Positions 5,413 to 34,678 of a stretch of DNA of 39,861 nucleotides are shown here, piece after piece. The notes below the pieces were generated by a model. The model saw only the letters and a list, made by a program, of their open reading frames with translations, did no database searches and was not told the DNA's origin. The stretch is taken from positions 1-39,861 of the forward strand of contig CAKZTD010000260.1 of assembly GCA_937921595.1 (NCBI GenBank). Direction: 5' to 3'. The stretch comes from an uncultured Saprospiraceae bacterium (GTDB lineage: Bacteria; Bacteroidota; Bacteroidia; Chitinophagales; Saprospiraceae). The translations under genes and the position numbers were made by a program. Each line of letters starts with the position of its first letter. Position 1 is the stretch's first letter.

Positions 5413-5443
5413 TTGCAACTTAAGATAATAAAGTTCATCTTTG
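5413..5443 (+). promoter_or_regulatory. Candidate promoter of the ilv leader RNA
   Basis: TTG at 5413-5415, a 20-base spacer and CATCTTTG at 5436-5443 (7 of 8 against TAnnTTTG). Transcription would start about 10 bases before the first leader-peptide ATG at 5461, giving a very short 5' end as is usual for attenuators. It is the only promoter candidate I see before leader 1; the 23 bases between terminator 1 and leader 2 hold none. Confidence 0.45.
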
Positions 5444-5460
5444 ATTTATAAATATTAAAA

Positions 5461-5517
5461 ATGAATACGAACTTCAATATCATTTCTGTCATTATTATTA
5501 ACGTCATTATTACTTAA
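5461..5517 (+). CDS. Ile/Val-rich leader peptide 1 of the ilv operon
   Basis: An 18-codon ORF reading MNTNFNIISVIIINVIIT and then TAA. Seven codons are Ile (six ATT-type runs plus ATC) and two are Val; there is no Leu. It lies directly upstream of an intrinsic terminator and of the ilvD-B-N-C-A cluster, which makes Ile and Val. This is the layout of a classical amino-acid attenuator: ribosomes short of charged tRNA-Ile or tRNA-Val would stall in the run. The stop codon ends two bases before the antiterminator strand (5520-5529), so a ribosome that completes translation would cover that strand and allow termination. It is not expected to have a function as a peptide. No database support was checked. 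Confidence 0.85.
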   Translation: MNTNFNIISVIIINVIIT

Positions 5518-5519
5518 TG

Positions 5520-5586
5520 TCGAAGGAAATGGTATTCTAAAAATATAAATTAAAAAGCCACTTTCCTTCGAGAGTGGCTTTTTTTA
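5520..5586 (+). promoter_or_regulatory. Attenuator 1: antiterminator strand plus intrinsic terminator
   Basis: Terminator: AAAAGCCACT (5553-5562) pairs with AGTGGCTTTT (5573-5582), extended inward by T-G, T-A and C-G around loop CTTC, and followed by a T-tract to 5585. Antiterminator: TCGAAGGAAA (5520-5529) is perfectly complementary over 10 bases to TTTCCTTCGA (5562-5571) inside the terminator, and with one bulge TGG (5530-5532) can also pair with CCA (5558-5560). The two folds are mutually exclusive. The antiterminator strand begins two bases after the leader-1 stop, which is the geometry needed for a translation-coupled switch. Confidence 0.82.
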
Positions 5587-5609
5587 TTGCACTTAATTAA
5601 AAATTTACA

Positions 5610-5699
5610 ATGCTTACTTTCAACACAATTATTATTAGCATCATTATTATTTCTGTCGTGGTCATTATTAGCACACGTCACAGGAAGGATGCTTGTTGA
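5610..5699 (+). CDS. Ile/Val-rich leader peptide 2 of the ilv operon
   Basis: A 29-codon ORF that begins MLTFNTIIISIIIISVVVII and ends STRHRKDAC followed by TGA. Nine Ile and three Val codons sit in an uninterrupted hydrophobic run at codons 7-20; Leu appears once. It starts 24 bases after terminator 1 and resembles leader 1 (both carry F-N then blocks of Ile broken by Ser), suggesting a duplication. Codons 25-28 contain the antiterminator strand AGGAAG (5682-5687), so a ribosome stalled in the Ile/Val run leaves it free, while one at the stop codon covers it. A longer frame over the same bases in another phase is not supported. Confidence 0.85.
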   Translation: MLTFNTIIISIIIISVVVIISTRHRKDAC

Positions 5700-5752
5700 A
5701 ATAAATTATAAAAATTTCAAAGCCGCTCTTCCTACGAAGTGCGGCTTTTTTT
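5682..5752 (+). promoter_or_regulatory. Attenuator 2: antiterminator strand plus intrinsic terminator
   Basis: Terminator: AAGCCGC (5720-5726) pairs with GCGGCTT (5741-5747); after a T-T mismatch CTTC (5728-5731) pairs with GAAG (5736-5739) around loop CTAC; T-tract 5746-5752. Antiterminator: AGGAAG (5682-5687), inside leader 2, is complementary to CTTCCT (5728-5733), with possible extra GC pairing of 5691-5692 to 5725-5726. Compared with attenuator 1 the stem keeps AAAGCC.CT...GGCTTT but changes an A-T pair to G-C, a covariation that supports real stem pairing in both copies. Confidence 0.8.
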
Positions 5753-6053
5753 ATGCATTACTCTTTCAAGTTTATTGAGCTTGTTTTGAATATTGTCGAA
5801 GCTCTTGATGAATGGGTAAATAAAAGAAAGGAATAATGGCAAGTTTCTAAATGCCTCGATATAAAATTAAACATTTGGCAGTAACTGACTTTCGTAACAA
5901 ATAATGTGATAGAATATTGACACTCAAAGACTTAGTGTGAAATTGACACTTTAGGCCACCGTAAAACATAATTTATTTGACTTTTAAACAGACGGTATTG
6001 GAAATAATTTTAAATTCCTTAGGAATACCACAGCGATAAACAAGACTAATAAA
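5753..6053 (+). other. Gene-free 5' leader between attenuator 2 and ilvD
   Basis: 301 bases. It contains two direct copies of ATTGACACT (5916-5924 and 5942-5950, 26 apart) with an AGTGT inverted partner (5934-5938) between them. Just before ilvD there are alternative small hairpins: GGTATT (5994-5999) with AATACC (6024-6029), or ATTCC (6014-6018) with GGAAT (6022-6026). These could be an operator and a translation-control stem, but none has a perfect promoter box beside it. A 27-codon ORF (5753-5836) is present but unconvincing as a gene or as a third attenuator. Confidence 0.4.
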
Positions 6054-7730
6054 ATGAATGAATTAAATAAATATTCCAAAACGGTAACACAAGATGAGAC
6101 ACAACCTGCTGCTCAGGCGATGTTACATGCCATAGGCTTGACGACCGAAGATTTAAAGAAACCGCAGGTTGGAATTGTCAGCACTGGCTGGGAAGGAAAT
6201 CCTTGCAACATGCACCTCAATGATTTAGCAAAAGAAGTCAAGGTTGGTGTCCAGCAAGAAGAACTCATCGGATTAATTTTCAATACAATCGGAGTAAGCG
6301 ATGGCATTTCAATGGGAACCACTGGGATGCGTTACTCACTACCTTCCAGAGATATAATTGCAGATTCTATAGAGACAGTCGCAGGTGCACAATGGTATGA
6401 TGCCATTGTCGCTGTTGTTGGTTGTGATAAAAATATGCCAGGAGCAATGATGGCTTTAGGACGTCTAAATCGTCCAGCAATTTTAGTTTACGGAGGAACA
6501 ATTAATTCCGGATGTTATCTTGATAAAGAGCTCGATATTGTTTCAGCCTTTGAAGCCTTAGGTCAAAAAATCGCAGGAAATATTTCTGAAAAAGATTTTA
6601 AAGGAGTCGTTCGAAACGCATGCCCCGGACCAGGAGCTTGTGGTGGAATGTACACTGCCAATACCATGGCTTCTGCAATCGAAGCAATGGGAATGAGCCT
6701 TCCTTATAATTCCTCCAACCCAGCGGTCAGTAATGAAAAACAATCCGAATGTGGACAGATCGGATCAGCCATAAATTATTTATTAGAAAATGATATCAAG
6801 CCACGGGACATCATGACTCGTGAAGCTTTTGAAAACGCCATCACCCTCATTACTGTTTTAGGTGGTTCGACAAATGCCGTTATTCACATGGTAGCAATGG
6901 CGAAATCTGTTGGTGTTTCTTTGACGATAGATGATATCCAGAAGATTGGAGACAAGACACCTCTTTTAGCAGATTTAAAACCAAGTGGAAAATTCCTCAT
7001 GAAGGATTTGCATACTGTAGGAGGTGTTCCCGCAGTTTTAAAATTGCTTTTAGAAAATGGATACCTCTACGGCGACTGCTTAACTGTCACTGGAAAAACA
7101 CTCGCTGAAAATCTCGCCTCCGTTCCTTCTCTTCCTTCCGATCAAAAAGTGATCAAACCTTTCGATAATCCAATTAAAAAAACTGGCCACATTCAAATCC
7201 TCTACGGCAACCTTGCTGAAGGCGGAGCTGTGGCAAAAATTACTGGTAAAGAAGGAGAAGTATTCAAAGGAACTGCAAGGGTTTTTAATAGTGAAGCCTT
7301 AGCAAATGAAGCCATCAAAAATGGAGTGATCCAAGAAGGTGATGTTATCGTCATTCGATTTATTGGCCCCAAAGGTGGCCCTGGAATGCCAGAGATGTTG
7401 AAGCCAACTTCTGCGATTATGGGAGCCGGACTAGGAGGGAAAGTAGCACTGATTACCGATGGTAGGTTCTCCGGCGGAACACATGGGTTTGTTGTTGGAC
7501 ACATTACCCCAGAAGCTCAAGCTGGTGGATTGATCGCATTACTAGAAGATGGCGATCCAATTACAATTGATGCGGTCAATAATACCATCGATGCTCATCT
7601 AGATCAAACAGAAATTGATCAGCGAAGAGCCAAATGGAAAGCACCCGCAATTTCAGCAACTAGTGGCATGCTTCGTAAATACGCGAAGTGTGTTTCTTCT
7701 GCCAGCGAAGGTTGTGTAACGGATGAGTAG
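6054..7730 (+). CDS. ilvD: Dihydroxy-acid dehydratase
   Basis: 558 residues, normal length. IlvD dehydrates 2,3-dihydroxy-isovalerate and 2,3-dihydroxy-3-methylvalerate to the 2-oxo acids, the third step of Val and Ile synthesis. Cysteines expected to hold the [2Fe-2S] cluster are C51 (GNPCNMH), C124 (VGCDKNMPG) and C196 ([12 protein letters not shown]). Further family motifs are [21 protein letters not shown] and [17 protein letters not shown] with the catalytic-site Ser region. It is the first structural gene after the double attenuator and is followed after 123 bases by ilvB. Cytoplasmic. Regulation by Ile/Val-dependent attenuation is inferred from the leader. Confidence 0.97.
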
Positions 7731-7853: not shown

Positions 7854-9599
7854 ATGAAAAGAGCATTTCACACAGAAAAATCTACAGGAGAAGCAATCAG
7901 CGATACCAAGCGTGTAGTCACTGGAGCCGAAGCCGTTTTGCTTTGTCTTTTAGAAGAAGGTGTTGATACCATCTTTGGATATCCAGGTGGTGCGATTATG
8001 CCAGTTTATGATGCTTTGTATCACTACCAAGATAAATTGCAACACATCTTGCCACGCCATGAACAAGGTGCTATTCATGCCGCAGAAGGTTATGCTCGAG
8101 TGACTCGGAAGACCGGCGTTTGTATGGCGACCTCTGGTCCAGGAGCAACCAACCTAATCACCGGAATCGCAGATGCGACGATGGATTCTACACCTGTGGT
8201 TTGTATCACCGGTCAAGTCTACAGTAAGGTCTTAGGTTCGGATGCTTTCCAAGAAGTAGATGTAGTTGGATGTACAACTTCGGTGACCAAATGGAATTAT
8301 CAGATCACCAAAGCGGAAGAAATTCCAGCGGTTTTTGCAAAAGCTTTTTACATCGCTAATTCCGGAAAGCCAGGAGCAGTCGTGATTGATATTACAAAAG
8401 ATGCACAATTCGGAGAAGTAGAATTCACCTACAAAAGAAATCCAGTAATCAGATCATATCACCCAAACCCAAAGCCTTGTCCAAACAAAATACAAGCAGC
8501 TGCTGATTTAATCAACCAAGCTAAGAAACCATTTATCCTTGCTGGTCATGGAATTCAAATTGCTCATGCGCAAGAAGCTTTTAAAAATTTTGTTGAAAAA
8601 ACGGGGATACCAATTGGTTGTACGATTCATGGTTTGTCTTCTATTCCTTCAAGTCATCCTCTCCATATGGGCATGCTCGGGATGCATGGAAACTATGGCC
8701 CAAATGTCAAAACCAATGAGTGTGATGTCTTGATTGCAATTGGGATGCGATTCGATGACCGGGTGACGGGAGATTTGAGTCGCTATGCAACACAAGCAAA
8801 AGTTATTCATATCGAAATCGATCCTTCCGAGATTAATAAAAATGTAAAAGCTGATGTTCCACTTCTTGGAGATGCGAAAAAGGTTTTGGAAAAATTGATT
8901 CCATTATGCGATGGAAAGACCTATCCAGGTTGGATTTTAGAATTTAAAGATTGTGAAAAAGAGGAGCGAGAAAAAGTGATAGAAAGAGATTTAAAAGAAA
9001 ATGAACAAGGTCAGATCAAAATGGGGCAAGTAGTTCATACGGTAAGTGAAATGACGAATGGCGAAGCGATTGTTGTGACAGATGTTGGTCAACACCAAAT
9101 GGTTGCTGCGAGATATTACAAATACCAATCTACGAATCAATGGGTTTCCTCCGGCGGTGCAGGGACGATGGGTTTTGGCCTTCCGGCAGCCTTTGGGGCG
9201 AAGCTGGCGAAACCAGAAAAAGAAGTGGTTGCCTTCATCGGAGATGGAGGTTTTCAAATGACCATCCAGGAATTAGGGATGTGTAGTCAATGGAATGTCG
9301 GGGTAAAGATAGTCCTCTTGGATAATGAATTTCTTGGGATGGTAAGACAATGGCAACAATTGTTTTTTGAAAAAAGATATTCCTCTGTTGCTCTTCAAAA
9401 TCCAGATTTTATAAAAATAGCAGAAGGCTTCGGTGTGGCAGGGAAGATGGTAGAAAAACCAGAAGATTTAGAAAGTAGTATTCAAGAAATGTTAGATCAT
9501 GATGGTCCTTTTTTATTACACGTAAAGGTTGAAAAAGAAGAAAATATTTTTCCAATGATTCCAACAGGATGCTCTGTTTCAGAAATAAGATTAGAGTAG
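7854..9599 (+). CDS. ilvB: Acetolactate synthase, large (catalytic) subunit
   Basis: 581 residues with the three thiamine-diphosphate enzyme domains in order: PYR domain (about 22-190; [14 protein letters not shown], catalytic Glu E70 in [22 protein letters not shown]), central FAD/Rossmann-like domain (about 215-350), and PP domain with the ThDP motif [29 protein letters not shown]. It condenses pyruvate with pyruvate or 2-oxobutyrate, the first common step for Val and Ile. The FAD-domain segment MRFDDRVTG and the C-terminal QWQQLFF.KRYS are characteristic of biosynthetic AHAS rather than catabolic ALS. A roughly 20-residue N-terminal extension precedes the PYR domain; the ATG at 7854 is used. 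The regulatory subunit ilvN follows after 88 bases. Confidence 0.96.
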
Positions 9600-9687
9600 C
9601 CGCTACTGGATTAGTAGATTGGTTATTAGTAATCGGTATATCAAAAATAAAACAATCCGCTAAGGTGCCAATTAAAAAAAACAGATC

Positions 9688-10224
9688 ATGAAAGAATTTA
9701 CAATATCAGTTTTCTCAGAAAATAAAACAGGCCTTATCACTAGGATTGTTTCCGTTTTTACAAGAAGAAATCTCAACATAGAAAGTCTGACTACTTCAGA
9801 GTCGTCGATAAAAGGGATTCATAGATTTACAATTGTCGTAAAGCAAGAAGAAGAGGACGTAAGAAAGTTAGTCGCACAGATTGAAAAACAAGTAGATGTG
9901 ATCAAAGCATTTTATTATCATCCTGAAGAAATCGTGCATCAGGAAATTGCATTGTATAAAGTACCGACTGCAGCTTTTTCTCAAGGTGATAAAGTAGAAA
10001 AATTGATTCGATCCTATAATGCAAGAATTTTATCTATAGAGCCAGAATATATTGTTGTCGAAAAGACAGGACACTCTTCTGATACAGACGCCTTGCTCAA
10101 AGAATTTCAACAGATAGGAATCTACGAGTTTGTTCGCTCTGGCCGAGTCGCAATTGTAAAACCTATGGAACAACTAAATACTTATTTACAATCCCTGGAA
10201 AATACTCCAATGGAGAACGATTGA
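9688..10224 (+). CDS. ilvN: Acetolactate synthase, small (regulatory) subunit
   Basis: 178 residues. Residues 1-75 are an ACT domain (FTISVFSENKTGLITRIVSVFTRRNLNIESLTTSES), which binds Val as feedback inhibitor and activates the large subunit; residues about 85-165 are the usual C-terminal small-subunit domain (EIALYKV, ARILSIEPEYIVVEKTG, YEFVRSGRVAIVKP). Its position directly after ilvB fits the usual AHAS pairing. The symbol ilvN is chosen over ilvH by convention only; the sequence does not distinguish them. Confidence 0.94.
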   Translation: MKEFTISVFSENKTGLITRIVSVFTRRNLNIESLTTSESSIKGIHRFTIVVKQEEEDVRKLVAQIEKQVDVIKAFYYHPEEIVHQEIALYKVPTAAFSQGDKVEKLIRSYNARILSIEPEYIVVEKTGHSSDTDALLKEFQQIGIYEFVRSGRVAIVKPMEQLNTYLQSLENTPMEND

Positions 10225-10234
10225 TCAAGGATTA

Positions 10235-10252
10235 GCAAGTTTTAAAACTTGC
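10235..10252. repeat. Perfect 18-base palindrome between ilvN and ilvC
   Basis: GCAAGTTTTAAAACTTGC, 11 bases after the ilvN stop. The half-site GCAAGTT/AACTTGC is the same word found in the larger dispersed intergenic palindromes of this window. No T-tract follows. Confidence 0.6.
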
Positions 10253-10371
10253 ATTATTACCCACTTTCATTTACAGACTCGTTCCTCGTCTTAAAACTTA
10301 AAAGAGTACAGAAAAATATTTTATAAAAAAGGTAAACGGAACAAACCCCGAATACCAATAATTTAAAAATC

Positions 10372-11430
10372 ATGGCAAAAATAAACTTTGGTGGTGTTGA
10401 AGAAAATGTAGCCACACGTGACGAATTTCCATTAGCGAAAGCAAGAGAAGTATTAAAAGACGAAACCATAGCGATCATTGGTTACGGTGTACAAGGCCCA
10501 GGTCAAGCACTTAATCTTAGAGACAATGGGTTCAATGTTATCGTCGGTCAACGGCAACCGTCCCAATCTTGGGACAAAGCAATTGATGACGGCTTCGTTC
10601 CTGGTGAAACACTTTTTCCAATCGAAGAAGCTTGCAAGCGCGGAACCGTTATTCAATATTTGCTTTCAGACGCTGCACAAATTTCTCAATGGGAAAATAT
10701 CAAACCGCATTTGACTGCTGGTAAAGCATTGTACTTTTCTCATGGTTTTGGAATTACCTACAAAGAACGAACAGGGATTATTCCTCCGGCAGATATCGAT
10801 GTAATTCTCGTTGCTCCAAAAGGTAGTGGAACTAGCCTTCGTAGAATGTTTGTCGCAGGACGTGGATTGAACTCCAGTTATGCGATTTTTCAAGATGCAA
10901 CTGGACGAGCAGAAGAAAGAGTCGTTGCCCTTGGAATCGGAATCGGTTCTGGATATTTATTTGAAACGACTTTTAAAAAAGAAGTCTATAGTGATTTGAC
11001 CGGAGAACGTGGATCATTGATGGGAGCGATTCAAGGATTGTTTGCAGCACAATATGATTTGCTTCGAGCAAGAGGCCATTCGCCATCAGAAGCTTTTAAT
11101 GAAACGGTGGAAGAAGCAACGCAATCTTTATATCCACTCGTTGCAGAAAATGGAATGGATTGGATGTACGCCAATTGTTCTACAACTGCTCAACGTGGTG
11201 CTCTGGATTGGTGGAAAAAATTCCGAGATGCAGTAGCTCCAGTTTTTGCGGAATTATACGATAGTGTTGCTACTGGAAATGAAGCGCAGCTGTCTATCGA
11301 TTCTAATAGTCAATCCGATTATCGTGAAAAATTAAGTGCAGAACTAAAAGAACTTCGAGAGTCAGAGATGTGGGAAACGGGAAGAGCTGTTAGAGCATTG
11401 CGACCGGAGAATGAGAAAGTGAAAGTTTAA
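10372..11430 (+). CDS. ilvC: Ketol-acid reductoisomerase (NADP+)
   Basis: 352 residues. The Rossmann nucleotide-binding motif GYGVQGPGQ sits at 38-46, followed by VIVGQRQPSQSW, where R61 and the Ser residues are positioned to read the NADPH phosphate. The knotted helical C-terminal domain has the metal/substrate motifs YSDLTGERGSLMGA and NETVEEATQSLYPLVAENG. It isomerises and reduces acetolactate and acetohydroxybutyrate, the second Ile/Val step, using Mg2+. The length is close to class I enzymes (about 330-350), without the duplicated knot domain of class II. It is 147 bases after ilvN and probably on the same transcript. Confidence 0.96.
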   Translation: MAKINFGGVEENVATRDEFPLAKAREVLKDETIAIIGYGVQGPGQALNLRDNGFNVIVGQRQPSQSWDKAIDDGFVPGETLFPIEEACKRGTVIQYLLSDAAQISQWENIKPHLTAGKALYFSHGFGITYKERTGIIPPADIDVILVAPKGSGTSLRRMFVAGRGLNSSYAIFQDATGRAEERVVALGIGIGSGYLFETTFKKEVYSDLTGERGSLMGAIQGLFAAQYDLLRARGHSPSEAFNETVEEATQSLYPLVAENGMDWMYANCSTTAQRGALDWWKKFRDAVAPVFAELYDSVATGNEAQLSIDSNSQSDYREKLSAELKELRESEMWETGRAVRALRPENEKVKV

Positions 11431-11444
11431 ATTAGCAAGTTGAT

Positions 11445-11526
11445 AAGTTAACAAAAGAACAATTTAATAAGTTAGCAATAGTCGCCCCATTGTTATTCTG
11501 TTAGTTTGTTCTTTTGTTAATTTTTT
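11445..11526 (+). terminator. Long hairpin with T-tract between ilvC and ilvA (dispersed palindrome, copy A)
   Basis: TTAACAAAAGAACAA (11448-11462) and TTGTTCTTTTGTTAA (11506-11520) are perfect 15-base complements, extendable by three weak pairs, with a 43-base loop, and followed by TTTTTT (11521-11526). It could end or attenuate transcription between ilvC and ilvA, lowering ilvA, or simply stabilise the ilvC 3' end. Words such as GTTAAC, TTGTTC and AGCAAGTT are shared with the repeats near 25800, 27700 and 28900. Confidence 0.5.
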
Positions 11527-11560
11527 CAAATTATAGAATTGAAGTCAAAGTAAAAAAATC

Positions 11561-12826
11561 ATGTCTCAAGCATCTCAATCTTCTCCACTTATCAGCGTCG
11601 AAAATGTCTACAAGGCAAAGGTTCGATTAAAAGGTATTGCCCAGCATACCCCTTTGATGTCGAATTATAATTTGTCAGAAGAGTATGGCTGTAATCTTTT
11701 TTTGAAAAGAGAAGATTTGCAGATCGTCCGATCCTATAAAATCCGTGGTGCTTATAATAAAATGTCAGGGATTTCGGAAGAAGATTTGCAGAGAGGAGTG
11801 GTTTGTGCCAGTGCGGGGAATCATGCGCAAGGTGTAGCTTTTGCTTGTTTAAAACTCGGCGTCAAAGGGACAATCTATATGCCTTCCACGACACCCAAAC
11901 AGAAGGTGGACAAAGTTCGACTTTTTGGAAAAGATAAGGTGACGATTATTTTGGAAGGAGATACTTTTGATGTGTCTTATGATTTAGCTTCGAGAGATGC
12001 GGAAAAGAATAACAAGGTTTTTATTCATCCTTTTAATGACCTAAAAGTGATGGAAGGGCAGGCTACTGTTGGCTTGGAAATTTTGGAAGATTCTACGGAG
12101 AAAATTGACTATGTTTTTGTAGCCATTGGTGGTGGTGGATTGGCATCTGGGCTTGGTAGTTATTTCAAACAACTGAGTCCCAATACAAAAATCATTGGTG
12201 TAGAACCTGCGGGCGCTGCTTCCATGAAAGCATCGGTAAACGCAGGTGAAGTTGTAAGTTTGGAACACATTGATTCCTTTGTCGATGGAGCTGCAGTGAG
12301 AAGGGTAGGGGAGCAGACTTTTGAAATTTGTAAAAAAGTAGTTGATGATTTTGTACAGGTGCCAGAAGGAAAGGTTTGTTCTACCATTTTAAAATTATAT
12401 AATGAGGAAGCGATTGTTGCTGAACCTGCGGGAGCTTTGACGATTGCTGCTTTAGATTTTTATAAAAAAGAAATCAAAGGAAAGAATGTGGTTTGCATCA
12501 TCAGTGGTGGAAATAATGACATTACTCGAACGGAAGAAATCAAAGAGCGATCGCTTTTGTATGAAGGCTTGAAACATTACTTTATTATAAAATTTCCGCA
12601 ACGCGCTGGCGCACTTCGGGAGTTTTTAAATGTGCTGGGAGAGAATGATGACATCACCCATTTCGAATATACTAAAAAACACAATCGGGAGTCTGGGCCT
12701 GCAATGGTTGGGGTAGAATTAAAAAATAAATCCGATTACCCTGATCTGATTGCTCGTATGGAAAATCAAGGAATTCAGTTTCAAACTTTAAATGATAATC
12801 CGATGTTGTTTGATTTATTGGTATGA
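11561..12826 (+). CDS. ilvA: Threonine ammonia-lyase (threonine dehydratase)
   Basis: 421 residues. PLP fold type II enzyme with Schiff-base Lys K60 (RSYKIRGAYNKM), the CASAGNHAQGVA asparagine loop, the phosphate-binding glycine loop AIGGGGLASGLG, and IISGGNNDITR near the end of the catalytic domain. A single C-terminal ACT-like regulatory domain occupies about residues 340-421 (FPQRAGALREFLNVLG...NREGPAMVGVEL-type). It makes 2-oxobutyrate, the Ile-specific precursor. The length, shorter than the two-ACT E. coli IlvA of about 514, matches the one-regulatory-domain form of many Gram-positives and Bacteroidota. Position after ilvC and the Ile-rich leaders support a biosynthetic rather than catabolic role. 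Confidence 0.93.
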   Translation: MSQASQSSPLISVENVYKAKVRLKGIAQHTPLMSNYNLSEEYGCNLFLKREDLQIVRSYKIRGAYNKMSGISEEDLQRGVVCASAGNHAQGVAFACLKLGVKGTIYMPSTTPKQKVDKVRLFGKDKVTIILEGDTFDVSYDLASRDAEKNNKVFIHPFNDLKVMEGQATVGLEILEDSTEKIDYVFVAIGGGGLASGLGSYFKQLSPNTKIIGVEPAGAASMKASVNAGEVVSLEHIDSFVDGAAVRRVGEQTFEICKKVVDDFVQVPEGKVCSTILKLYNEEAIVAEPAGALTIAALDFYKKEIKGKNVVCIISGGNNDITRTEEIKERSLLYEGLKHYFIIKFPQRAGALREFLNVLGENDDITHFEYTKKHNRESGPAMVGVELKNKSDYPDLIARMENQGIQFQTLNDNPMLFDLLV

Positions 12827-13571: not shown

Positions 13572-16500
13572 CTATTTCTTAGACAAAACCACTCTCTGAA
13601 CAAATACCTCTCCATCAACAATTACTCTCGCTAGATAAACTCCGTTTGGAAAGTCAGCCAAAGAGACTTGATAGTTTTTAGCAGAAACATTTTCTTTATT
13701 CCAATCTAATAATACACGTCCAGTTACATCGAGTACCGATAACTGAACAATCATAGATTCTTCTAATTCAATGTTGACAGCGAATTTACCAATTGTTGGA
13801 TTCGGATTAATTTTGATATACTTTTCGAAATCCAAACTTGTCGTAGAAACAATATTGTCGATGGTGTAAGTCTCAGAACTTATTGAACAACCATTGATAT
13901 CTGTAACCGTTAAAGTATAAGATCCAGCCGGTGCATCCAATAAATCTTCTTCATTTGAAACAACCATTCCATTCGCATCGGTCCAAGTGTAATTATAAGT
14001 TGGCGTTCCTCCAGTAACACTCACTTCGATAGAACCATTACCACCGTTTTCCATTTCGTTGATAATGTTATCCGTCGAAATTGTAATTGCAGAAGGCTGT
14101 GTAATCGTGATGATCTCTTCGAATTGACAACCTACTCCGTCCGTTATGATTACCGAATATTCACCTGAAGAAATGTCTGAAATTGACTGAGTCGTTTCCC
14201 CCGTATTCCACAAGTAAGTATAACCTGGAGTTCCTCCTGACGGTAAAGCGATGATGTTTCCATCACTTCCTTCAAAACAAGAAACTGGATCGAAATCGAA
14301 AGTACTTTCCAAAGTATTTTCAACAGTAATGCTAAAACTACAAGTCGCAATATTTCCAGCCATATCTTCTACCTGATAAGTAATCATTGTTAGCCCCTCA
14401 GGAAATTGAGCACCACTTGGAAGACCTTCAATTAAAACTGGTTCCATCGCAGAACAATTATCTGATACCGATGGTAAAGTATAATTGATACCTTCACAAC
14501 TATTACTTACGATATTTTCAATACAACTGATTGCTGGTGCAAGATTATCAACAACAGTTACGATGGCTGTTTGACTTGTCATGTTTCCTGCTAAATCAGT
14601 AACTTCAAATACTATCTCATTTTGTCCAAGATGAGAACAATCAAATGATTCTTGATTGATTATGAATTGATCAATTCCACAATTATCGGTCGTTCCATCA
14701 TCAACCATACTAGCATCAATGACTGCGGTTCCATTTCCATCTAAATTTACAAAGATGTCTTGGGTGATTACATTCGGTGCAATATTGTCCATTGACGATA
14801 CTTCAATTTCTTCTGTTTTTTCACAACCAGATTGATCAGTAATTAATACAGTATACAAACCACTTTCTAAATCATTAATTGTAGAAGTCGTCAAACCATT
14901 TGACCATAGGTAAACGTAATTGCCATTTCCTCCAGAAGCGGTAATACTGATAGAACCTTGAGTGTCATTAGGGCAAACGTTATTGTTAACTGCATCAACT
15001 TGGATGGCTATGTCTTGAGGTTGAGCAATGACTAATTCTATTTGGTCTTCGCAACCGAAAGCGTCAGTAGCAATAATAGTGTAGATTCCAGCGCCAAGAT
15101 TATTTACACTTGATTCGGTAACTCCATTTGACCATTGATAAGTGTATGGTCCAGCACCTCCGCTAGTGTTTAATGTTGCTGTTCCGTTACTCGCTCCAAA
15201 GCAAGAAGCATCAGAGGAAGAAACTAAAGTAAGTTCTGGTAAATCGATTTGAGCTACTTCAATGGAAGAAGAACTAGTACAACCATTGCTTGTATTCGTT
15301 ACCAACAAGTTGTAAACACCAGGAGCGTTAATTAAAGGATTTTGAATATCCATATCTCCTACGATATTTCCATCTGTGGTTGTCCATTGATAATTAATAT
15401 TTGAACCAGTGGAGGATCCAGAACCATCAATGTTTAATTCAGAAAGGTTACAATTAAGTGCTTGATTGACTTCTGCAATTGCAAGCGGACTTTGAATGTC
15501 TTCTAAAACTTCAATCGTCGTTTGGTCAACACATCCATTGTCTTGATCTGTAATAAGTAAAGTGTAAGTTCCAGGTGTTGAAATATCTATAACCTCAGAA
15601 GTGCCGATCTCGGTTTGATTTGCATCTTGCCAGCTATAAGATAAAGAACCTTCCGCAGAAGAATTACTTCCAGAAATACTTACCAGGTTATTATTACAAG
15701 TTAATGTTCCGTTTGTTTCTGCAACTGCAATTGGTGTATCTGTACTTGCTTCAACTAGTGCTGTAGTGGAAGCAGAGCAACCATTTTCAGAATCAGTTAT
15801 AATTAAAGTATAGGCCCCTGCATTCAAAACTTCAATGTCAGAAGTCGTCCCGATTTCCATTCCGTTTTGATCCAACCAGATAAAATTCAATGGACCATTT
15901 GCTGAAGAGCTTTGACCAGAAATGAGGACTGTTCCATTCGTACAATTTAAAACACCGGCGACATCTGTCACCGCAGTTGGAATATCTGTACTTGCTGAAA
16001 CTTCAACAGCACTAGAAGCCGTACAACCATTGTTTGTATTCGTGACTATCAGTTGATAGGTTCCAACCATTGAAACATCGATGGTCTCATCAGTTCCAAT
16101 AGTGTTACCATTTACATCTGACCATATAAAGTTTAAAACTCCATTTGCCGAAGAATTACTAGCATCTAAAAGTGTAGAAGTATTTACACAATCCAAAATA
16201 TCTGGATTGATAATATCTACGGTTGGAGTATTGGTATCTTCTTCGATGATTATATTGGAAGAAGCAGAACAACCATTGTCAGTATTGGTTACCAGAAAGG
16301 TATAACTTCCAGGAGTGTTTACTTCAACAGAAATATCATTACTGATCAATTGCCCAGCATCATTTATCCATTCATAATTATAATTACTTCCTTGAGACGA
16401 ACCATTTCCATCAATTAATACCACACCATTGATACAATTTAAAATGCCTTCAGTGGCTACTTCGACCGTAGGGAAATCGGTACTTGCTGAAACCTCAGTT

Positions 16501-19500
16501 TGAGAAGAAGCCGTACATCCGTTTTCGAGATTCGTTACAATTAAGGTATAAGTTTCAGCAGCTGAAACTTCAACGGAAATCTCATTGCCGACATTGGTGT
16601 TGTTAGAATTTAACCATAGGTATTCAAAATTTGAACCCGTGGAAGAACCAGAGCCATTGAGCTCAATAACTGAAGTGGCACAATCTAATTGACCATTTGG
16701 ACCTGCATTAGAAACAGGCGATTCTGTATCTTGATCGATTTCTATAAAAGCATTTGAAGTACAACCGTTTTCAGTATTGCTAACAATGATTTGGTAAGTG
16801 CCTGCTTGAAAAACATCAGCAGTGGGATTAGAACTGATATCCTCATTACTTTCGTTCAACCATTGGTATTCAAATTCAGCTCCACTTGAAGAAGCCGAAC
16901 CATCTAAGGTTATGGAATTCGTAATACATGTTAGGGTTTCCGCATTTCCAGCATTAGCAAATGGCGCCTGAGTATCTTCTGTAATGTCAACACTTTCAGA
17001 AGCTGTACAACCGTTTTCTGTATTGGTAACAATCAGTGTGTAGGTGTCATAAATCTCCACCATTTCTTGGACCTCTAAGCCGATAGTTACAGCGGCAGAG
17101 TTAAGCCATTCATATTCAAATTGACTGCCTTGAGAAGAAGCAGTACCATCTAAAGTAATGGTATTGATAACACAAGTTAGGTGGTCATCTTCTCCAGCAT
17201 TAGCAATGGGGAATTCAATGTCTTGAGAAACTTCTACAGAATCATCATTTGTACAACCAGTTTCCGTGTTTGTTATAATCAAAGTGTAGATGTCTGGTTG
17301 GTCTACGTCGACTTCGATCTCTGCACTGATTTCCTCATTATTAGAATTTAGCCATTGGTATTCAAATTGGCTTCCGTCGGAAGAAGCACTACCGTCAAGG
17401 TTTATATTTAAAGTAATACAATTTAACAAACCATCATTTCCAGCATCTACGATTGGTGTTTCAATGTCTTGGGATATTTCAACACTTGCATTAGATGAAC
17501 AACCGTTTTCAGTATTGGTTACGATCAAAGTATAGGTATCGGCCTGATCGATTTCCAATTCGATTTCTGAACCGATTTCTTCGTCATTTGAATTTAACCA
17601 TTGGTATTCGAATTGACTACCTTCAGAAGAAGCATCTCCATTCAGATTGATTGTATTTACGATGCAAGTTAGTTGATCATCATTTCCAGCATCAGCGGTC
17701 GGAGCTTCTACATCTTCAGTCACTTCAGTGCTTGCATTGGAAGAACAACCGTTTTCAGTATTGGTCACAATTAAAGTGTAAGTATCTGAATTATCAACTT
17801 CTATTTCAATTTCAGTACTAATTTCATCGTTATTAGAATTTAACCATTGGTATTCAAACTGGCTACCTTCAGAAGAAGCACTTCCATCCAAAATGACCGC
17901 ATTATTTGTACAAGTGATTTGATTATCATCTCCCGCATTTGCGGTAGGAAGATTAGTGTCTTGAGTAATCTCAACAACCGAATTTGAGATACAACCATTT
18001 TCAGTATTCGTGACGATTAAAGTATAGGTATCTGCCTCATCGACTTCTACTTCTATTTCTGTACCGATTTCTTCATCATTAGAATTTAACCATTGATATT
18101 GAAATTGAGTACCTTCGGAAGAGGCGCTTCCGTCCAAGTTTAAGGTACTTGTCGTACAAGTCAATTGATCGTCATTTCCTGCATCAGCAGTTGGAGCATT
18201 TGTATTTTGAGTAACGGTCACAGAAGAAGTTGAAGTACATCCGTTTTCAGTATTGGTAACAATCAATTCATAAACACCGGATTGATCAACTTCAACATTT
18301 AGATCGGTACCAACTTCCTCATTATTGTTATCTAACCAAGAGTATTCAAATTGATTTCCTTGAGAAGAAGCACTTCCGTCAAGATTAACAACTGAAGTGT
18401 TGCAAGTAATCTCATCGCCATTTCCCGCATCTGCAGTCGGAGCTTCTATGTCTTGAGTAACTTGGGTAGAAGAAGTTGAAGTACAACCATTATCAGTATT
18501 CGTTACTATAAATTCATAAGCTCCATTTTGGTCTACATCGATTGTGAGTTCGTTACTTATTTCATTTCCTTCAGGATTAAACCATTGATAAAAATACTGG
18601 CTCCCCTGAGAAGAAGCACTTCCGTCCAATGTAATAGTCGATAGAGTACAAGTTAAAGTTCCATCTTCTCCCGCATCTGATTGAGGCGAATTTAAATCTC
18701 CTTCAACGATTACATCATCAAAGCTTTGACAACCAGTCTGAGTATTTAAAACAGTTATCGTATAAATTCCTGGTTGATCTACAGTAGGAGAAAGCGTATT
18801 TGATCCGCTAACAATATTTCCATCTAGAGTTTCCCAGGAGTAATTAATATCCGGCCCTGTTTCAGAACCAGTACCATCAAGATTAATATTAGAGTCGTTA
18901 CAACTAATGGAAACTGTTGAGCCTGCTTCTGCATTTGGGGCAGGTTCATTTTCAATAATAACAGAAGAGATCACCGTACATCCATTTTCATCAGTAACCG
19001 TTGCAGCGTAATTACCTGCCGATAAATCATTGATGACATTGCTTGTGGTAGGTCCATTTCCAATATCATAAACAAAACTACCCGTTCCGCCATTTGCAAA
19101 TAAAAGGATAACACCATCGGTTTGATCACAATTTTCATTAATGGCATCAGTTGTAAAATTTATTGCAGGAGGTTCATTAATAAAAACCGTTGATGTCTCC
19201 GTACAGCCATAAGAGTCTGTAACCGATAAAGCATAAAGCCCTCCGGAAAGATTCATTAAGTCTTCCGTGTTTGCACCATTACTCCAGTTGTAACTATAAT
19301 TCGTTCCTCCTCCAGAAGTAGACACAAAGACACTTCCATTATTTTCTCCGGCACAAGCTACATGATTGGTGTTGTCTATGTTTACAAGGAGAGGAGAGGA
19401 AGGACCATCAATAATGAAAGGACCGACTTCAATGGAATGGCCTTGGCCTTCAGTGATGGTACAGCTGTAAGATCCTGAAGGAACACCGTTAAGATCTTCG

Positions 19501-20156
19501 GTTGTTGCGCCATTATCCCAAGAGAAAGAAATACTTCCATGACCACCTTCTATGGTAAGATCGATTCCTGATTCAGCATCTTGATAACAAATAGGAGCAG
19601 TCACTACTTCTGTTGCGTCGAGATTACAACTGTTGACCCAGTTTTCCCAAGTACCTAAAGGTGGTTGTCCCACTTCGTAAATTTTTCTATTGGGACAAAC
19701 CTTATATAAGGTTGGGAAATAATTAATATTAAAATCAGAATTAAAGCTTCCTCCATTACTACCTGTGATGTGAACAATTGGGTAGTCGACATCTACTGTC
19801 CAATCACCAAAAGTACCTCCACTACAACCAGCTGTTCCGTAAAGACAAGCTTCATTAGTACTGGTACTGGATTCTACCATAAAGATTTCAATTTCATTGG
19901 TTCCATTCGGACCATATTCTGCATAGAGATCGCTAAGAACATGGGTGTTGTGGTAATTCCAACATGGACCACACCAGGTAGCCATGACATCGAAGACTAC
20001 ACTTTTGCCTTCATCAAGAACATCATAAAGGGTATGCGTATTTCCATCGACATCGGTAAAAGTGATATTGGGTGCGATGGAACCGTCAGGTAGTTGAGCA
20101 AAAAGATTAAAGGATAAAAAGAGACAAAAGAGCAGGGTAGAAAACCGGGTTTTCAT
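13572..20156 (-). CDS. Giant T9SS-secreted surface protein: thioredoxin domain, SprB-like and 15 PKD-like repeats
   Basis: 2194 residues. Signal peptide 1-20 (LLFCLFLSFNLFAQ). Residues 22-180 are a thioredoxin-like domain with active-site WCGPC (61-65). Residues 185-407 hold SprB-type modules ('GSISFSWDNGATTEDLNGVPSGSY' pattern). Residues 408-1641 are 15 Ig/PKD-like repeats of about 82 residues; nearly all carry a Cys pair (L-T-C near the start, E-N-G-C near the end), which may form intradomain disulfides. Then come two SprB-like modules, two HYR-like domains (VTDLAGNMTSQTAIVTVVDN), two more SprB-like modules and, from about 2105, a type A T9SS sorting domain (NPNPTIGKF, VLDVTGRVLL, FPNGVYLARV). 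Predicted to be secreted and anchored at the cell surface. Adhesion or gliding is a guess; the CGPC suggests an oxidoreductase activity. Repeat units 4-7 are the most alike, pointing to recent expansion. Confidence 0.9.
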   Translation of the reverse strand: MKTRFSTLLFCLFLSFNLFAQLPDGSIAPNITFTDVDGNTHTLYDVLDEGKSVVFDVMATWCGPCWNYHNTHVLSDLYAEYGPNGTNEIEIFMVESSTSTNEACLYGTAGCSGGTFGDWTVDVDYPIVHITGSNGGSFNSDFNINYFPTLYKVCPNRKIYEVGQPPLGTWENWVNSCNLDATEVVTAPICYQDAESGIDLTIEGGHGSISFSWDNGATTEDLNGVPSGSYSCTITEGQGHSIEVGPFIIDGPSSPLLVNIDNTNHVACAGENNGSVFVSTSGGGTNYSYNWSNGANTEDLMNLSGGLYALSVTDSYGCTETSTVFINEPPAINFTTDAINENCDQTDGVILLFANGGTGSFVYDIGNGPTTSNVINDLSAGNYAATVTDENGCTVISSVIIENEPAPNAEAGSTVSISCNDSNINLDGTGSETGPDINYSWETLDGNIVSGSNTLSPTVDQPGIYTITVLNTQTGCQSFDDVIVEGDLNSPQSDAGEDGTLTCTLSTITLDGSASSQGSQYFYQWFNPEGNEISNELTIDVDQNGAYEFIVTNTDNGCTSTSSTQVTQDIEAPTADAGNGDEITCNTSVVNLDGSASSQGNQFEYSWLDNNNEEVGTDLNVEVDQSGVYELIVTNTENGCTSTSSVTVTQNTNAPTADAGNDDQLTCTTSTLNLDGSASSEGTQFQYQWLNSNDEEIGTEIEVEVDEADTYTLIVTNTENGCISNSVVEITQDTNLPTANAGDDNQITCTNNAVILDGSASSEGSQFEYQWLNSNNDEISTEIEIEVDNSDTYTLIVTNTENGCSSNASTEVTEDVEAPTADAGNDDQLTCIVNTINLNGDASSEGSQFEYQWLNSNDEEIGSEIELEIDQADTYTLIVTNTENGCSSNASVEISQDIETPIVDAGNDGLLNCITLNINLDGSASSDGSQFEYQWLNSNNEEISAEIEVDVDQPDIYTLIITNTETGCTNDDSVEVSQDIEFPIANAGEDDHLTCVINTITLDGTASSQGSQFEYEWLNSAAVTIGLEVQEMVEIYDTYTLIVTNTENGCTASESVDITEDTQAPFANAGNAETLTCITNSITLDGSASSSGAEFEYQWLNESNEDISSNPTADVFQAGTYQIIVSNTENGCTSNAFIEIDQDTESPVSNAGPNGQLDCATSVIELNGSGSSTGSNFEYLWLNSNNTNVGNEISVEVSAAETYTLIVTNLENGCTASSQTEVSASTDFPTVEVATEGILNCINGVVLIDGNGSSQGSNYNYEWINDAGQLISNDISVEVNTPGSYTFLVTNTDNGCSASSNIIIEEDTNTPTVDIINPDILDCVNTSTLLDASNSSANGVLNFIWSDVNGNTIGTDETIDVSMVGTYQLIVTNTNNGCTASSAVEVSASTDIPTAVTDVAGVLNCTNGTVLISGQSSSANGPLNFIWLDQNGMEIGTTSDIEVLNAGAYTLIITDSENGCSASTTALVEASTDTPIAVAETNGTLTCNNNLVSISGSNSSAEGSLSYSWQDANQTEIGTSEVIDISTPGTYTLLITDQDNGCVDQTTIEVLEDIQSPLAIAEVNQALNCNLSELNIDGSGSSTGSNINYQWTTTDGNIVGDMDIQNPLINAPGVYNLLVTNTSNGCTSSSSIEVAQIDLPELTLVSSSDASCFGASNGTATLNTSGGAGPYTYQWSNGVTESSVNNLGAGIYTIIATDAFGCEDQIELVIAQPQDIAIQVDAVNNNVCPNDTQGSISITASGGNGNYVYLWSNGLTTSTINDLESGLYTVLITDQSGCEKTEEIEVSSMDNIAPNVITQDIFVNLDGNGTAVIDASMVDDGTTDNCGIDQFIINQESFDCSHLGQNEIVFEVTDLAGNMTSQTAIVTVVDNLAPAISCIENIVSNSCEGINYTLPSVSDNCSAMEPVLIEGLPSGAQFPEGLTMITYQVEDMAGNIATCSFSITVENTLESTFDFDPVSCFEGSDGNIIALPSGGTPGYTYLWNTGETTQSISDISSGEYSVIITDGVGCQFEEIITITQPSAITISTDNIINEMENGGNGSIEVSVTGGTPTYNYTWTDANGMVVSNEEDLLDAPAGSYTLTVTDINGCSISSETYTIDNIVSTTSLDFEKYIKINPNPTIGKFAVNIELEESMIVQLSVLDVTGRVLLDWNKENVSAKNYQVSLADFPNGVYLARVIVDGEVFVQRVVLSKK
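15234..18935 (-). repeat. Coding tandem array of 15 units of about 246 bases
   Basis: It encodes residues about 408-1641 of the giant protein. Units 2 to 14 have exactly 82 codons each; unit 1 has 85 and unit 15 has 83. Central units share stretches such as Y-Q-W-L-N-S-N and Y-T-L-I-V-T-N-T-E-N-G-C, while outer units are diverged. Assembly from short reads may be unreliable here. Confidence 0.85.
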
Positions 20157-34656: not shown

Positions 34657-34678
34657 AGAAAAATAATAAGAAGTAAAG

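Follow-up and report, generated by a model that had tools for sequence, protein, structure and literature searches.

The ilvDBNCA operon of an uncultured Saprospiraceae bacterium (NCBI GenBank assembly GCA_937921595.1, contig CAKZTD010000260.1; the 39,861-nucleotide stretch analyzed is called the window) is preceded by two short, Ile/Val-rich open reading frames (ORFs), each followed by a terminator hairpin of its own. We propose, with a probability of roughly three in four, that both units are ribosome-mediated attenuators acting in series on leader transcripts. Serial attenuation, as put forward in the original prediction, is well supported in silico by the anatomy of the units, their alternative pairings, conservation, controls, the recurrence of such arrays in relatives, and the absence of −7 boxes between units.

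Anatomy of the leader region

The features of the window on which the argument turns are listed below; TANNTTTG is the −7 box consensus of sigma-A in the available text of PMC9723704 and PMC7366714.

4369-5364: gene upstream of the leaders, with weak family matches only
5413..5443, + strand: candidate promoter P1, with TTGC at 5413-5416, 19 nt, and CATCTTTG at 5436-5443 (7/8 against TANNTTTG)
5461..5517, + strand: leader ORF 1, MNTNFNIISVIIINVIIT, 18 codons with 7 Ile and 2 Val; orthologous leaders in L002 and L003
5476..5487, + strand: protector segment 1 of unit 1, inside ORF1, pairing with 5525-5536 in the minimum-energy fold
5521..5534, + strand: segment 2 of unit 1 (antiterminator strand), starting 4 nt past the ORF1 stop codon
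5553..5585, + strand: intrinsic terminator 1, with stem, CTTC loop and T tract; hairpin −17.2 kcal/mol
5610..5699, + strand: leader ORF 2, MLTFNTIIISIIIISVVVIISTRHRKDAC, 29 codons with 9 Ile and 3 Val, including a Val triplet; its counterpart in L003 is MVTINIISIIIIIAVIVIIGP
5681..5695, + strand: segment 2 of unit 2, within the last codons of ORF2
5719..5752, + strand: intrinsic terminator 2, hairpin −16.9 kcal/mol, with a counterpart in L003
5973..6012, + strand: candidate promoter P2, with TTATTTGACTTT at 5973-5984 and TAATTTTA at 6005-6012 (7/8 against TANNTTTG)
6054..7730, + strand: ilvD, first gene of the operon (TIGR00110, 742.5 bits, cut-off 618)
7854..12826, + strand: ilvB, ilvN, ilvC and ilvA (TIGR00118, TIGR00119, TIGR00465 and TIGR02079 of NCBIfam, each above its cut-off)

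Terminator 1 and ORF2 lie 24 nt apart, and both composition and ViennaRNA folds agree with the initial description of two Ile/Val leader ORFs with intrinsic terminators at that distance. Given a frequency of Ile plus Val of 0.144 in seven nearby CDSs, the composition of the leaders has an uncorrected probability of 2e-4 per leader ORF, each ORF being taken alone. The folds of units 1 and 2 stand at z −5.3 and −4.6 relative to shuffles, 0 of 200 of which were as good for each unit. A simple terminator scan of the window returned 0 terminators, neither terminator 1 nor terminator 2; the ViennaRNA folds show both. Further along the window, the − strand carries an ORF for a 2194-residue repetitive protein (13572-20156), which presumably resembles thioredoxin at its start and a type IX secretion sorting domain in a C-terminal stretch.

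The alternative antiterminator suggested for each unit is borne out by pairing energies. In unit 1, the partner of positions 5521-5534 is the 5′ arm of terminator 1 together with its loop, at −14.8 kcal/mol, a value equaled by 0 of 100 shuffles; in unit 2, positions 5681-5695 pair with the terminator 2 arm at −12.9 kcal/mol, a value equaled by 3 of 100. The antiterminator becomes the minimum-energy fold once the terminator 3′ arm is omitted (unit 2) or trimmed to 6 nt (unit 1), and a protector 1:2 pairing inside the leader ORF is seen in the minimum-energy folds only. For segment 2 of unit 2, the unit 1 arm is as good a partner (−13.0 kcal/mol) as its own arm (−12.9 kcal/mol). The elements of a leader-peptide attenuator are thus present in silico: a short Ile/Val-rich ORF, a terminator after it, and an exclusive antiterminator near the stop codon. 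In the classical geometry, segment 2 is covered by a ribosome that has reached the stop codon, but mostly not by one stalled on upstream codons; the window units match this geometry in the position of segment 2, 4 nt past the stop codon for unit 1 and within the final ORF codons for unit 2. Judged from sequence, both units look like classical ribosome-mediated attenuators.

Two other explanations of the region were rejected. A riboswitch or T-box finds no counterpart in Rfam, where no family, including the T-box/riboswitch families and the amino-acid leader families Thr_leader, Leu_leader, Phe_leader and Trp_leader, reached its gathering score in the window. In a relaxed scan, the best match of unit 1 was Thr_leader (RF00506; 39.2 bits, E 1.1e-5, gathering score 55), and unit 2 had weak leader matches only, with Thr_leader (22.0 bits) among others. 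A single unit accompanied by a chance ORF is at odds with the shuffle and hisG-region controls described below, which gave 0 doubles. No plasmid homologues of the leader region were present in the plasmid collection searched.

Conservation within the genus

Four genomes of the genus provided ilvD loci, L001 (the window), L002, L003 and L004; a fifth, G003 (75% complete), had no ilvD match. Both units are kept in two of the four, the window and L003, so the second unit is dispensable; L002 has unit 1 only, and the sole unit of L004 aligns with unit 1. Among the units of the 30 arrays described below, window unit 1 is closest to L003 unit 1 and window unit 2 to L003 unit 2. Hence, with each unit most similar to its positional counterpart, the pair is older than the split between the window and L003. 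The double leader is found again in a close relative, and it recurs in other Bacteroidota arrays.

The terminators differ in their pattern of change. With the only unit of L004 taken as counterpart and the arms aligned by structure, by hand, 52 of 52 pairs of terminator 1 are standard in the four genomes, and 4 of its 13 pairs are changed on both sides. In terminator 2, two stem positions distinguish the window from L003, with 0 compensatory changes, and the two share the location of a mismatch inside the stem (T-T in the window, C-C in L003). Covariation, which the original prediction had put up as a check on both stems, is thus present in terminator 1, but terminator 2 has no both-sided change. 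Upstream, the arrangement TTGC-N19-CATCTT of P1 is also seen by eye ahead of the first leader in the same-genus L003 and L004, with CATCTT alone in L002. The −7 boxes of P1 and P2 are both imperfect in the window.

Recurrence of serial leaders in other genomes

We used a detector that calls a leader where 10 codons include six or more I/V/L, of which four or more are I/V, and where the stop codon lies −15 to 75 nt from a hairpin with a T tract; as a positive control, it recovers E. coli ilvL precisely where it is annotated. In a set of 207 distinct ilvD upstream regions it found 83 single and 11 double leaders, as compared to 7 singles and 0 doubles in 621 dinucleotide shuffles and 11 singles and 0 doubles on the 207 reverse strands. 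A phylum-wide search added 104 regions (42 single, no tandem), bringing the set to 311 distinct regions with 125 single and the same 11 double. These 311 are best-scoring matches rather than a random draw; they comprise 30 + 80 loci, 25 new loci + 80 regions, and 28 new loci + 80 regions, minus 12 that were repeats or shorter than 300 nt, the searches behind the last two groups having yielded an ilvD match in 266 of 399 and 277 of 392 genomes. On 59 hisG upstream regions the Ile/Val detector gave 5 singles and 0 doubles, and a His detector applied to the 311 ilvD regions found one unit in 5.

Inspection of the matches removed several. In L163 and L167 the first unit is false, being upstream sequence, which reduces the 11 doubles to 9 genuine ilvD tandems (L001, L003, L022, L074, L101, L107, L120, L138 and L195); their carriers include an Ignavibacteriae MAG (L074), Gaetbulibacter (L101) and an uncultured Aquimarina (L107). 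L326, picked on purpose as belonging to the same genus as L195, has two units. The first units of L072 and L402 are false detector matches (by eye or by automatic rules), the L385 match is the end of another gene, and pieces in L071, L103, L369, L370, L375, L377, L378, L380, L386, L394 and L396 were likewise rejected; we take the latter to resemble the ATP synthase epsilon C-terminus. As other single matches may be false too, the numbers of singles given here are upper values. In the opposite direction, the automatic rules drop three genuine-looking tandems, L101, L120 and L094, whose hairpin is called too long.

In some zero-unit loci ilvE lies ahead of ilvD; three such genes were checked and all exceed the TIGR01122 ilvE cut-off. 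A scan farther upstream, over the 85 zero-unit loci that offer more than 1200 nt, found none in 52, one unit in 25, two in 7 and three in 1 (L218); six of the seven doubles remain (L036, L048, L061, L094, L227 and L229), the first unit of L072 looking false. Named carriers of arrays include Tenacibaculum caenipelagi (L048), Chryseobacterium lathyri (L061) and, from the ilvD set, Gaetbulibacter sp. S0825 (L101). Searches with IlvE supplied 57 scanned loci, namely 26 distinct Flavobacteriaceae genomes plus a repeat (L399, repeating L350, itself the genome of L218) and 30 loci in the family of G556. The assignment to Flavobacteriaceae follows from a record of that family, L271, that repeats L076, Zeaxanthinibacter. 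The 26 ilvE-first Flavobacteriaceae loci (L339-L355 and L400-L408) are the matches with E < 1e-90, 17 of 30 from one search and 9 of 30 from another. Of these best-matching loci, 14 are double (e.g., L353), 3 triple (L350, L354 and L400), 5 single (e.g., L345) and 4 without a unit, the one false unit (L402) being excluded; 17 of 26 therefore hold two or three units. The 30 loci of G556's family (L369-L398) had one match in 17, none in 7 and two in 6, and in every one of these 6 at least one match was judged false. Shuffles of the 57 loci gave 5 singles in 285 and 0 doubles. The reverse strands gave 6 singles and 1 double (L339), the latter from symmetrical terminators that work both ways, which makes reverse strands a weak control.

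Altogether, 33 ilv arrays were counted by eye (30 double and 3 triple), 30 of which (27 double and 3 triple) are kept by the automatic rules. Judged by these comparisons, the series of units in the window is no accident: a congener keeps both units, 33 arrays are found, and 621 shuffles gave 0 doubles. A tree of IlvD (FastTree, 160 rows) has 10 tandem rows and 10 changes of state; as it scores ilvE-first loci as zero, it shows only that tandems are scattered and offers no count of gains.

The second unit might also be a neutral leftover of a tandem duplication. L352 and L107 are likely recent duplications, and L002 and L004 hold one unit, as this explanation would allow. Nonetheless, in 28 of 30 arrays the first unit is less like the last unit of its own array than like some unit of another array, yet most of these diverged units retain terminator and antiterminator. 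Unit 2 of the window is, moreover, matched by unit 2 of L003, and we regard such a leftover as improbable.

Some further likenesses among arrays were observed. Upstream of ilvE, the last unit is probably duplicated in L350, L352, L354 and L400, the units of L352 being almost identical. The ilv arrays of L195 (window's family) and L402 (Flavobacteriaceae) are very alike, with unit scores of 0.83 and 0.89, and the IlvD of L195 lies nearest to that of Myroides L038 in the tree; together these perhaps reflect horizontal transfer of operon and leader. By eye, the last 130 nt ahead of ilvD in L195 resembles the 3′ end of the gene preceding ilvD in L038, and is perhaps a relic of a lost ilvE. In G556's family (L371-L395, upstream of ilvE), several single leaders are Leu-rich with Val and Ile, e.g., ...VVLLPVIILNLLLLNIL...; elsewhere the leaders are Ile/Val leaders.

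Units of an array as probable parts of one transcript

The distance from a terminator to the start of the next leader has a median of 24 nt (range 11-153) in the 30 arrays. Of 134 regions, 31 contain TANNTTTG within the 90 nt ahead of the first leader, as against 11.8 expected, most often at a distance of 26-30 nt from the leader start; TTG at −33 is only weakly enriched (6 vs 3.3 expected). At 24-34 nt before the leader start, the box occurs in 29 of 168 single units and 9 of 30 first units, as opposed to 0 of 33 later units (first vs later, Fisher p 0.0006); an exact −7 box is missing in 21 of the 30 first units. Scanned directly, the inter-unit gaps had the box in 0 of 9, with 0.6 expected. 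A promoter in the gap was therefore rejected on the 0/33 count and the median gap, and the claim that no promoter lies between the units stands on the same two figures.

These data bear on the alternative of separate promoters, one per unit, with that of unit 2 overlapping terminator 1, so that the units act in parallel rather than serially. In its favor, the his arrays described below have wider inter-unit gaps (53-163 nt) with room for a promoter, and the window has a weak sigma-70-like match (9/12) at 5604-5632. A start from that match would fall inside ORF2, past its start codon, and the absence of TANNTTTG from all 33 later units and all 9 gaps (0.6 expected), together with the 24-nt median, further argues against separate promoters, which we hold to be very improbable.

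An antiterminator stronger than 95% of 60 shuffles is present in 115 of the 168 single units, 20 of the 30 first units and 27 of the 33 later ones; those falling short number 3 of 18 tandem units in the first set and 16 of 63 units in the 30 arrays. Mean pairing with the terminator arm is −13.1 kcal/mol in single, −12.3 in first and −14.9 in later units, while a stretch of equal length just upstream of the leader pairs with the same arm at −5.8, −5.0 and −10.8 kcal/mol, respectively; for later units this control stretch can include the previous terminator. Own pairing exceeded cross-unit pairing in 58 of 72 within-array comparisons, and over 102 units it averaged −13.1 vs −9.2 kcal/mol for swapped partners, with the own arm in the best 5% in 43 of 102.

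The original prediction had also raised the idea that the two units sense different Ile/Val ratios, and a stronger form of it would divide the labor, one unit sensing mainly Ile and the other Val. The Val triplet of ORF2 is in keeping with such a division. Against it, Ile exceeds Val in both window leaders, and across the 30 arrays the mean composition of first units (34.6% Ile, 10.5% Val) is close to that of later units (40.1% Ile, 8.3% Val). Different sensing thus gains no support, and a division of labor seems to us highly improbable.

A candidate promoter downstream of both terminators

The spacer from terminator 2 to ilvD is 301 nt and contains P2. Its 12-nt TTATTTGACTTT does not vary among the four genomes of the genus, the three besides the window have an exact TANNTTTG at the corresponding position, and the −7 box lies about 43-65 nt ahead of ilvD in the genus. 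From this conserved block after terminator 2, we infer that ilvD of this genus may also be transcribed from a promoter lying beyond both attenuators. The claim that read-through of both is needed consequently holds for leader transcripts only, since the P2-like block (5973-6012) may let ilvD bypass both.

Taken further, the operon could be driven mainly by P2, the attenuators governing a minor upstream transcript and mattering little for ilvD. Besides the conserved TTATTTGACTTT with its −7 box (exact in three genomes, TAATTTTA in the window), this is favored by a count over attenuator-positive loci: of the 45 whose spacer reaches 120 nt, 19 have TANNTTTG in the spacer as against 8.2 expected. 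When TTG at −33 is also required, the same 45 spacers give 0 vs 2.25 expected, and the window's −7 box is imperfect. Against this reading, too, unit 1 is retained with compensatory changes. In 11 of the 25 arrays measured, the last terminator lies just 21-44 nt ahead of the first gene (start of match), leaving little room for a bypass promoter. We consider a dominant role for P2 unlikely and retain serial attenuation of leader transcripts as the preferred reading.

Leaders of other amino-acid operons

Upstream of hisG in the window's genome (L463, contig C112, hisG at 34662) two His leaders, MILIQLHQNSHHYNTSIT and MNFNQNFHLHHHAFVERCKW, stand in series, each with a terminator. All four genus members examined (L463-L466) have double His leaders, as does L469, from another genus. 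In 30 hisG loci (from 30 of 35 genomes with a match), 5 were double, 20 single and 5 without a unit, and 150 shuffles gave 3 singles; in antiterminator pairing, 8 of the 10 double-array units surpass 95% of shuffles. These his arrays have wider inter-unit gaps (53-163 nt), which would leave room for separate promoters. In L463-L466, by eye, a conserved five-codon ORF (ATG ACC ACT GCA or ACA ATA TGA) shares an ATGA with the beginning of His leader 1, an overlap that may suggest translational coupling of the leader.

Among the 68 hisG matches in Flavobacteriaceae, 29 of the best 30 had a single His unit and the other had none, with 0 in 150 shuffles; the 29 of 30 indicates that leader peptides are widely used in the phylum. 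The best trpE-like gene in each of the four genus genomes, which is below the family cut-off, has one WWW leader. A scan upstream of leuA showed no leader.

Proposed mechanism and relation to known systems

We propose two complete leader-peptide transcription attenuators in series on a single leader RNA of ilvDBNCA. In each, a ribosome reaching the stop codon would cover segment 2, allowing the terminator to form and ending transcription; with uncharged tRNA-Ile or tRNA-Val, a stalled ribosome would leave segment 2 free to pair with the terminator 5′ arm, and the polymerase would continue. A polymerase started at P1 would have to pass both terminators, and leader read-through would approximate the product of two probabilities; compared with one attenuator, this should lower the basal level, widen the range and make the response to Ile/Val shortage steeper. 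In this genus, P2 after terminator 2 may add a leader-independent base level. Ribosome stalling, the single transcript and the activity of P1 and P2 are read from the arrangement of the elements, and the multiplied read-through with its lower basal level and steeper response is deduced from them in turn.

Several known systems offer partial parallels. The E. coli ilvL leader of ilvXGMEDA (NC_000913.3) likewise has an Ile/Val/Leu-rich peptide and a terminator ahead of ilv genes; in contrast to the window, the same detector finds one unit, and the ilvL peptide has several Leu. The Salmonella mgtCBR leader, with mgtM and mgtP, has two short ORFs in one leader, each in an attenuator (PMC3641672), and the window, too, has in silico two ORF-controlled attenuators in one leader. 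According to the available text of that source, the mgtCBR attenuators respond to different signals (ATP and proline) with additive effect, and its authors term them a singular example, setting them against the metE leader, whose two sites are expected to act as intrinsic terminators. The window differs from mgtCBR, as far as that text describes it, in apparently reading the same amino acids twice, to judge by codon content, and in having a terminator per unit. The B. clausii metE tandem riboswitches, which act independently, share with the window two serial switches and two terminators, but are ligand-binding RNAs without leader peptides (PMC3641672, in the portion available).

In the same phylum as the window, strong indications of attenuation ahead of operons for amino acids have been described in Flavobacterium psychrophilum (PMC9723704), the accessible text of which mentions no series of leaders. 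The rimP-leader of several Gammaproteobacteria has a second terminator in tandem and so resembles the window in its serial terminators, but in the available part of its description (PMC2965389) it is not presented as an amino-acid leader peptide. Two leader peptides also precede ermB (PMC8274638); in the excerpt at hand, they are overlapping ORFs in an erythromycin-induced translational attenuation, unlike those of the window. Work on the sensitivity of attenuation (PMC1183508) contains neither "tandem" nor "two attenuators" in its available text. Searches of the main texts of open-licence papers gave no described series of same-amino-acid leader attenuators.

Implications

Attenuation is a textbook switch with a single decision point. 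Two amino-acid-sensing stop switches in place of the usual one should make ilv control tighter and steeper. In toy numbers, a read-through of 0.1-0.9 per unit would yield ranges of 9, 81 and 729 fold for one, two and three units. A series would raise gain at the cost of basal level, a trade-off that strains with arrays make testable. We further suggest, with somewhat less assurance than for the window itself, that serial same-amino-acid attenuation (two to three units; ilv and, in this genus, his) is probably a common architecture in Bacteroidota, in which units are gained by duplication and lost, and in which their number would set gain and basal level. Relatives with one, two and three homologous units may thus be regarded as natural experiments on the tuning of gain and basal level.
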